From contig NSHR01000030.1 in assembly GCA_002737115.1 (NCBI GenBank), forward strand, positions 1 to 49,255: a stretch of 49,255 bases of DNA, read 5' to 3'. This DNA is from Gemmatimonadota bacterium. Its GTDB lineage: Bacteria; Gemmatimonadota; Gemmatimonadetes; Gemmatimonadales; Gemmatimonadaceae. Below the pieces are notes generated by a model, which did no database searches, was not told where the DNA came from, and saw nothing but the letters and a program-made list of their open reading frames with translations. The position numbers and the translations under genes were made by a program. Below, one piece after another: positions 7,409 through 43,556 of the stretch. Positions within the stretch are counted from its first letter, which is position 1; each line of letters begins with the position of its first letter.

Positions 7409-7481
7409 TCCTGAAGTTGTGAGCAAGATGGCTGCTTCGACAGGGGCGCGGCGACCGGGGCCGCGCTGACGGTCGCGAGCT

Positions 7482-7602
7482 CTTTGGTTCACGCGAAGGG
7501 CGCGAAGATCGCGAAGAGACGCGAAGAACAGCAACAGCATTTTTCTCTTTTGCTATTCTTCGCGCCCTTCGCGGCCCTTCGCGATCTTCGCGCGAACCAA
7601 AG
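7482..7602. repeat. Long palindromic CGCGAAG repeat element, copy 1
   Basis: 56-bp arms 7482-7537 and 7547-7602, imperfect inverted repeat, 9-nt loop; CTTTGGTTC ends and iterated NNCGCGAAG units. Confidence 0.9.
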
Positions 7603-7649
7603 GCCTATCCCCTCAAGCGAACCTCAGCCGCAGCGCGCTGACGTTTACC

Positions 7650-30275: not shown

Positions 30276-31058
30276 ATGCCGGCTGACGAATTCAAAGCGC
30301 CCGACGACGACACGCCCGACGACACGCCCGACTCCCCGGCAGACGAAGGGGTCGAGGGCGATGACGACGGCGAAGACGACGACGAGGACGACGAGGAGGA
30401 CGACGAGGAGGACGAGGACGATGACGCCTACGGCGTCACCGACAGCATTGGCACCGGTGATGTCGATGGTGAGGAGAAGCCTGCCGTCTTCGTGACCACG
30501 CGCGAGCCGATCGCGCTGGCCGTGTCACGTCTGGACGATCCGCGCGCCCCGGAATCGTCGGCGCTGGCCGCCTACATCGACGGCCGCATGGTCGCCCGCA
30601 GCGCGATGCCGCCGGAAGCCATCGAACGCCTCGTCGATCTCAAGCTCTTCGAAGAGCCGGTCGCCCTCGGCCTGTTCGCCTTCGAAGATGACCCGGGGCT
30701 GCAGTGCCGACTGTTCGCCCTCGTACCGCGTACGTCACTCGACTCCGACGCGCACTCGTCGGAACCGTGGAAGGCCAGCGTCCCGAGCTACGAAGCGATG
30801 CGCGACGCCGACGACGACATGGACGACGACATGGACGACGACATGGACGACGACATGGACGACGACGAGGACGACGACGACGAGTCACCGTACGAAACGA
30901 TCCTCCTCGGCCACATCGTGCGCTTCGCCAAGGACCGCAAGTATCCGGACAACCTGGCCGAAGAAGCGGTCGACATTCTCACGCGCATCATCCATGGGGC
31001 CGAGCCGCTGGAAGACGCGGATCGAAAAGCCATCGACGACTTGCTGGGATCGCTGTAG
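30276..31058 (+). CDS. Highly acidic low-complexity protein
   Basis: Two Asp/Glu-rich stretches (DDDGEDDDEDDEEDDEEDEDDD and DADDDMDDDMDDDMDDDMDDDEDDDDE) around ordinary-looking sequence. Confidence 0.82.
   Translation: MPADEFKAPDDDTPDDTPDSPADEGVEGDDDGEDDDEDDEEDDEEDEDDDAYGVTDSIGTGDVDGEEKPAVFVTTREPIALAVSRLDDPRAPESSALAAYIDGRMVARSAMPPEAIERLVDLKLFEEPVALGLFAFEDDPGLQCRLFALVPRTSLDSDAHSSEPWKASVPSYEAMRDADDDMDDDMDDDMDDDMDDDEDDDDESPYETILLGHIVRFAKDRKYPDNLAEEAVDILTRIIHGAEPLEDADRKAIDDLLGSL
30810..30869 (+). repeat. 12-bp tandem repeat GACGACGACATG (four perfect units plus one variant)
   Basis: Units at 30810, 30822, 30834, 30846 and variant GACGACGACGAG at 30858; in frame, encodes DDDM repeats. Confidence 0.95.
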
Positions 31059-31081
31059 GAGTGCTTTCGGAGTGCTTTCGG
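31058..31081 (+). repeat. 11-bp tandem duplication GGAGTGCTTTC x2 at stop codon
   Basis: 31058-31068 and 31069-31079, begins on last base of TAG (31056-31058). Confidence 0.85.
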
Positions 31082-31092
31082 CGAGGCCGTAA

Positions 31093-31283
31093 ACTGCTCG
31101 TTCGCGCGAAGCTCGCGAAGGTACGCGAAGGCACGCGAAGAACAGCCAACAACGCTTGTGTGCTGTTCAGAAAAGAAAATGCCTCACCGTCGAAGCGATC
31201 CGACGGTGGGGCATGTTGTCGTACGCTCTGCTGTTCTTCGCGTGCCTTCGCGGCCCTCCGCGAGCTTCGCGCGAACGAGCAGT
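31093..31283. repeat. Long palindromic CGCGAAG repeat element, copy 2, with internal hairpin
   Basis: 56-bp arms 31093-31148 and 31228-31283 (ACTGCTCGTTCGCGCGAAGCTCGCG...); inside: ATGCCTCACCGTCG (31179-31192) pairs with CGACGGTGGGGCAT (31201-31214). Confidence 0.92.
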
Positions 31284-31385
31284 TACCGAGCCCAGTCAAT
31301 CACACCAGCGCTGGCGCAACGCGAAGCATCCAGCTAACTGTTGCCTCACGTCTCACCACCATCCCACCTCCAGCCTCCCCCAAGC

Positions 31386-31871
31386 ATGCGCATCACTCGC
31401 CTGTTCGCCGCCATCGCCATCGCCACGCTCGCCGTGACCACGCCCCGCGTCTCCGCGGCGCAGCTGGCCGACACCAAGATGCTCACCGCTGACGCGGTGA
31501 AGAGCCTGCTCGCCAGCGCCGAAGCCACCGCGAAGCAGAACAAGTGGAACGTGGCCATCGCCATCACCGATGCGGCCGGCGACCTGCTCGGCTTCCTCAA
31601 GCTCGACAACGCCAGCACCGGCTCCGTGCAGATTGCACAGGGGAAGGCCCGCACCGCCGCCCGCTTCGGCCGGCCCACGAAAGTGTATGCCGACCGGATT
31701 CTCACCGACACGCTGACGTTTCTGTCGGTCGACGGACTCGTCGCCCTGCAGGGCGGCCTGCCCATCATCGTGGGCGGCAAGGTGATCGGCGCCGTCGGGG
31801 TGAGTGGAGCCACCAGCGCGCAGGATGAACAAGTGGCCGCCACCGCGATCGCCGCCGTCATCAAGCCGTAA
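31386..31871 (+). CDS. GlcG/HbpS-family secreted protein
   Basis: Signal peptide then LTADAVKSLLASAEATAKQNKWNVAIAITDAAGDLLGFLKLDNA...GGLPIIVGGKVIGAVGVSGATSAQDEQVA. Confidence 0.94.
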   Translation: MRITRLFAAIAIATLAVTTPRVSAAQLADTKMLTADAVKSLLASAEATAKQNKWNVAIAITDAAGDLLGFLKLDNASTGSVQIAQGKARTAARFGRPTKVYADRILTDTLTFLSVDGLVALQGGLPIIVGGKVIGAVGVSGATSAQDEQVAATAIAAVIKP

Positions 31872-43508: not shown

Positions 43509-43556
43509 CTGTTCTTCGCGCACCTTCGCGCACTCCGCGCCCTTCGCGTCAAGCCG
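43509..43556. repeat. Solo half-arm of the CGCGAAG palindromic repeat, copy 3
   Basis: CTGTTCTTCGCGCACCTTCGCGCACTCCGCGCCCTTCGCGTCAAGCC aligns with the right arms of copies 1 and 2; no facing arm nearby. Confidence 0.75.

Follow-up and report, generated by a model that had tools for sequence, protein, structure and literature searches.

Dispersed intergenic repeats which fold into stem-loops have been described as SLS families and are concentrated 3′ of coding regions (Petrillo/Cozzuto; PMC1590033, PMC2267715). The Gemmatimonas palindromes described here are alike in these respects, but add four-unit periodic arms, locus-specific interiors and a recurrent inversion of the interior. REP/BIME elements with their RAYT genes (PMC2817692) are likewise alternating intergenic inverted repeats with a high copy number in some strains. 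The Gemmatimonas family differs from them by its arms of ~60 nt with CGCGAAG units and without a GTAG-type start, and no RAYT gene is present in the genomes G029 or G000. While a REP is a short single hairpin with a GTAG/GTGG-type 5′ tag, the consensus here reads ...GGTTCACGCGAAGNNCGCGAAGGGCCGCGAAGGNNCGCGAAGAACAGC and the palindrome needs two arms.

A second group of related systems is defined by inversion. Small inversions between short inverted repeats have been described in chloroplast genomes (PMC2939885), and in yeast template switching between such arms was reported to homogenise the arms and to invert the spacer (PMC8604942). In both cases, as in Gemmatimonas, a spacer between hairpin-forming arms is recurrently flipped among relatives; here too the flanks of the flipped spacer are collinear. 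However, those inversions concern single sites with short spacers, and the arms measure 11-24 nt in chloroplasts and some 10-16 nt in yeast, whereas here a whole repeat family is concerned, with arms of 46-60 nt and terminator-bearing spacers of up to 83 nt. Invertons (PMC11892184) also contain a segment between inverted repeats which occurs in both orientations, here seen between species, but the Gemmatimonas element has no adjacent recombinase and no promoter was found in it.

In the openly licensed literature we found neither a description or name of the CGCGAAG family nor an inversion of this kind across a whole family, and a literature search with the repeat sequences returned only an unrelated human satellite study. 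With a seed of 32 bp, a genome paper on Gemmatimonadota counted only 20 repeats for Gem. groenlandica (PMC11237797). We regard the family as a so far undescribed variant of the known intergenic stem-loop repeats, one with a recurrently inverted spacer. Our preferred reading, to which we give a probability of roughly 0.6, is that these are lineage-restricted, non-coding palindromes mainly at gene 3′ ends, whose arms enclose a locus-specific AT-rich or terminator interior, and that this interior inverts by way of the arms without a dedicated invertase.

The palindrome at 31092-31284

The window, that is the whole stretch of 49,255 nucleotides analysed, is contig 23 of G000, a short-read metagenome bin of 2.05 Mb which is 57% complete. 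Its longest inverted repeat in an inverted-repeat search has arms of 55 nt at 31092-31146 and 31230-31284, which are 95% complementary and separated by a spacer of 83 nt. This confirms the palindrome noticed in a first-pass annotation, which had placed arms of 56 nt at 31093-31148 and 31228-31283; the outer end was off by one and the two innermost positions are unpaired. The left arm (31092-31146, plus strand; arm model match 31092-31147, 59.0 bits) consists of the outer tip AACTGCTCG followed by TTCGCGCGAAG-CTC-GCGAAG-GTAC-GCGAAG-GCAC-GCGAAGAACAGC. The right arm (31230-31284, minus strand; model match 31229-31283, 59.5 bits) is an inverted copy of it with three mismatches, and the outer tips ACTGCTCG and CGAGCAGT are as described earlier. 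Between the arms lies the locus-specific interior of 83 nt (31147-31229), whose orientation is opposite to that found in four congeners at this locus.

As RNA the palindrome is predicted to fold with -142.5 kcal/mol (z = -15.8), a stability reached by none of 200 shuffled sequences. An additional pairing of AACAGC with GCTGTT, proposed before, is not part of this fold, which pairs AACAGC with the right arm; GCTGTT itself is located at 31162-31167 and not at 31161-31166. An Rfam search of the window gave no match above the gathering score for the palindrome. The sole match in the window is a TPP riboswitch (RF00059, 9757-9860, minus strand, 62.4 bits).

A family of CGCGAAG-arm repeats

That the palindrome belongs to a dispersed family is borne out by a sequence-only arm model, which finds related arms across the window and in congeners. 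Each arm comprises four CGCGAAG units and has the conserved ends (GG)TTCRCGCG and GAAGAACAGC, the consensus being nGAnAGnCCGnTGG-TTCACGCGAAG-NN-CGCGAAG-GGC-CGCGAAG-GNN-CGCGAAGAACAGC. The units are 9-10 bp apart and thus lie on one face of the helix. Five arms are found in the window, with E-values from 2e-18 to 3e-12. Apart from the palindrome at 31092-31284 these are copy 1 (7476-7609), with arms at 7476-7534 (plus) and 7550-7609 (minus), and a single partnerless arm at 43509-43552 (minus; 42.1 bits, E 3e-12). The two palindromes had been thought to have exactly the same arm length. This is roughly true, but the unit spacings of copy 1 differ, so that its arms pair with gaps.

Arms occur in pairs as '+-' with 1-83 nt between them, in agreement with the variable interior length noted earlier, or as '-+' with 38-57 nt between them; single arms also exist. 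Clusters of the types '+-', '-+', '+-+' and '+-+-' are seen, that is, intergenic arms of alternating orientation. By this model the complete genome G029 has 52 arms, G024 has 24, G014 has 22, and G017 and G000 have 21 each, the last four being drafts of 57-93% completeness. The 25 other genomes of the genus have 0-4 arms each, and 17 of the 30 genomes searched have none. A tree built from a single flanking gene places the element-rich species inside one supported clade, together with poor species, and makes G000 and G017 sisters. The family is restricted to one Gemmatimonas lineage. Beyond the genus a phylum-wide pattern search gave few matches, of which the most numerous group, that of G093, proved to be a simple tandem repeat.

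Dispersed copies, patchy abundance across the genus and the BIME-like alternation of '+-' and '-+' arrangements are what one would expect from a MITE or REP/RAYT-type repeat, spread by a transposase acting in trans and now decayed. This concerns the origin of the family and may coexist with our preferred reading. However, the elements remain at the same loci across species, and interiors resemble each other at corresponding loci of different species but are not shared between loci. Cargo in the sense of a mobile passenger, a possibility raised earlier, is not supported, as the interior stays at its locus across species and flips there. Target-site duplications, for which a check had been proposed before, were not detected: none is present at the window copy, and over 36 pairs the flanks give no signal (mean direct repeat 2.58 versus 2.86 for shuffled partners). 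Moreover, the Y1 transposase (PF01797) has no match in the complete and richest genome G029 or in the incomplete G000. The profile is present in G014, G024 and G025 and in the element-free G005 and G016, and searches with PF01797 and PF00239 revealed no transposase or serine invertase common to the rich genomes. We consider such an origin unlikely, though it is the most probable of the alternatives.

Inversion of the interior at the window locus

The palindrome lies between two genes on the plus strand. The upstream gene (30276-31058), which ends ~33 nt before the left arm, encodes an acidic protein with no Pfam match, and the downstream gene (31386-31871) a member of the HbpS-like haem-degrading protein family (PF03928, Pfam E 3.2e-35). 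This locus holds the element in five species, G000, G017, G029, G024 and G014; in G014 the locus was recognised as orthologous by its upstream gene and by ~330 nt located further downstream. G025 and G015 lack the element at this locus, and their empty sites are too diverged for a clean insertion point. Short direct repeats GAGTGCTTTCG adjoin the element (window 31058-31092); the window has two of them, G017 (L335) has three, and one copy persists in the element-free G025 (L091).

The interior of the window copy contains a 14-bp stem, ATGCCCCACCGTCG/CGACGGTGAGGCAT (31179-31214, minus strand), with halves at 31179-31192 and 31201-31214. Its one mismatch, noted before, would be a U-G wobble in RNA. 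It is followed on the minus strand by the T-rich tail TTTCTTTTCT (31169-31178). A GC-rich hairpin with a subsequent T tract is the usual appearance of an intrinsic terminator, and the interior probably represents one, as the first-pass annotation had proposed; a terminator scan calls a terminator-like site here on the minus strand only.

In G017, G029, G024 and G014 the interior hairpin GCCCCACCGTCGGATCGCCTCGACGGTGGGGC and its T tract lie on the plus strand, along the upstream gene, and the window alone among the five species has the hairpin on the minus strand. Aligned with each of the four congeners, the window interior scores 41.5-56 when inverted and 8.5-15 when direct (p = 0.002 in each comparison). 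The predicted terminator swaps strands together with the interior, as the scans call plus-strand sites in the congener loci L059 and L083, and the flanks are collinear, the window matching G017 over 5.1 kb with 91% identity. Over evolutionary time, then, the enclosed segment changes its orientation. As G017 is the sister species of G000, an inversion on the G000 branch is the simplest reading, and the putative terminator in the window now faces away from its upstream gene. All these comparisons are based on one genome per species, mostly drafts, so that each draft orientation represents one assembled consensus.

A short-read bin and inverted arms are circumstances under which the flipped interior might be an assembly artefact of the metagenome bin. 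A redundant contig of G000, C70 (L331, 5188 bp), indeed ends within the interior of another element; it duplicates part of C10 (L332) with one mismatch and may derive from a variant strain or from a fork of the assembly in that element. However, the arms share no exact inverted match longer than 26 nt, which is below the larger k-mers usually employed by assemblers, and other genomes show inversions at other loci. An artefact therefore has very little probability.

Inversion and turnover at other loci

At locus F the interior of G024 is flipped in comparison to G000 and G017 (p = 0.002). At copy 1 the interior of G000 is flipped relative to G017 (p = 0.002) and is oriented as in G020, a more distant species, and at locus L G000 is flipped relative to G024 (p = 0.017) and G014 (p = 0.005); as several species were compared per locus, the p-values are not independent. 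At locus G the interior of G014 appears inverted by eye, but is too short for significance, and the calls from short interiors at loci B, L and G are individually weak. The loci E, H and J show a single interior orientation among the compared species. In total the spacer appears inverted at three to five of about ten comparable loci, three firm or nearly so and two suggestive, a count which except for the window locus and locus F rests on alignments of short interiors.

Invertons distributed over the genome would also produce conserved-end inverted arms around segments found in both orientations at several loci per genome. Here a site-specific recombinase acting on the arms would flip terminators within populations and thereby alter the read-through into neighbouring genes, and the complete congener G029 does encode one resolvase-family protein. 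However, no recombinase gene adjoins the window locus or lies in its flanks, and a search for serine recombinases gave no resolvase-family (PF00239) match for four of the five element-rich genomes, G000, G014, G017 and G024, all of them incomplete (57-93%). This makes a dedicated invertase less likely as the cause of inversion. Furthermore, arms and tips differ strongly between sister species, unlike a fixed recombinase site. We regard phase-variable invertons as improbable. Still somewhat less credible is the bolder form of this idea, in which one trans-acting factor recognising the CGCGAAG arms flips the interiors of dozens of gene-end palindromes throughout the genome in living populations, with variable read-through from cell to cell.

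According to the preferred reading the arms themselves would suffice. When the DNA is single-stranded, two long, near-identical arms will pair with each other as a hairpin, and strand or template switching, or recombination over short homology, between such hairpin-forming arms could flip the interior. Exact inverted matches between the arms are only 14-26 nt long, but this is enough for template switching. An argument against it is that the arms are not generally homogenised, although switching would tend to homogenise them.

Locus F also illustrates turnover. The sister species G000 and G017 have both kept the flanking genes and the hairpin of the interior, but their arms differ: arms and tips of G000 resemble those of G014 and G024; in G017 the arms are of the TTGACGCG type and the tips are G025-like. 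At this locus turnover is thus quicker in the arms than in the DNA around them, which could be due to interspecies exchange or to replacement from another locus. The interiors can shrink or collapse, as only six bases are left in G029, and in G014 the interior has been lost together with most of the arm sequence. The empty sites of G015, G020, G027 and G028 are too diverged for a clean insertion point. In three element-poor congeners, G006 (L289), G026 (L284) and G004 (L283), the same gene gap or its vicinity contains other inverted or periodic repeats built from different units, for example GCTTCCGC in G004.

At locus K of G029 (L055:2022-2831) two different copies of the element enclose genes for a HicA toxin and a HicB-like protein; of these two elements G000 (L007/L334) retains just one and G017 (L346) just the other. 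We rejected hicBA as mobile cargo, since loss is as likely as gain. In another region of G029 (L058:2083-4920) two elements flank ~2.6 kb with genes for a sigma factor and a fasciclin-domain protein, while the window carries a single element at this place (7476-7609).

Position relative to genes

Using a simple coding-potential gene call, 17 elements were assigned to convergent, 22 to tandem and 3 to divergent gene gaps, compared to 12, 56 and 25 element-free gaps, respectively, at the same loci (chi-square p = 3e-4). Most elements start some 10-55 nt past a stop codon, and the family sits mainly at gene 3′ ends.

As part of an RNA the element would form a hairpin at the transcript end or act as a terminator, in either direction at convergent genes. 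At loci such as the window locus the interior may set the direction in which the strong terminator works, and in the genome of the window its turning away from the upstream gene could affect read-through. This terminator role is read from sequence features. Recurrent flips of a putative terminator at the same gene end in close species represent a natural experiment on whether hairpins at gene ends insulate neighbouring genes, which also bears on how often bacterial palindromes turn their spacer. If inversion is frequent within populations, it would offer a simple, recombinase-free route to switchable read-through.

Evolution of the arms

The very stable fold and the placement after genes could also point to a structured RNA or a bidirectional terminator kept by compensatory base changes, and the first-pass annotation had raised the idea of covariation between arms. 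As a rule this does not hold. In 36 pairs the nine variable arm columns match their own partner no better (identity 0.431) than shuffled partners (0.445), and compensatory selection is accordingly not indicated. At the conserved positions it is the sequence itself that is kept, in inverted copies, and some arms occur singly without a partner. A structured RNA maintained in this way is therefore very improbable.

The outer tips had been reported to co-vary within a copy. Over the 12 tip columns of the 36 pairs the excess is weak (0.414 own versus 0.344 shuffled, sd 0.025), and the window copy, with nine contiguous matches, is the most extreme case; at the same locus in the four congeners most tips have one or two mismatches. 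Of the two causes named earlier, compensatory change is not indicated, while homogenisation of both arms is possible for the window copy, where alone it is suggested, as all 36 pairs together show no excess of homogenised arms.

Conserved columns show a small excess (0.939 own versus 0.928 shuffled), which is at least partly a species effect. Arms start with TTCGC in 15 of 19 cases in G000 and with TTCAC in 35 of 39 cases in G029. That the same base has shifted the same way at many separate loci within a species points to homogenisation between these loci or to selection exerted by a shared factor.

Similar palindromes in other phyla

The CGCGAAG-arm design recurs in distant phyla. Palindromes with the same unit, periodicity and inverted pairs are present in the Chlamydiae MAG K940_chlam_3, Candidatus Viridilinea, a Sphingomonas MAG and others. 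Their ends differ (TTTAACC...), and the likeness is one of design. In the Chlamydiae MAG similar arms bound a repeated interior, which speaks for the transposon-like origin discussed above. The pairs of Chlamydiae bacterium K940_chlam_3 (L111, L127, L134, L137, L149, L169) have the ends TTTAACC/GGTTAAA and look like a MITE family; their interiors are partly common to several copies, some of them in opposite orientation.
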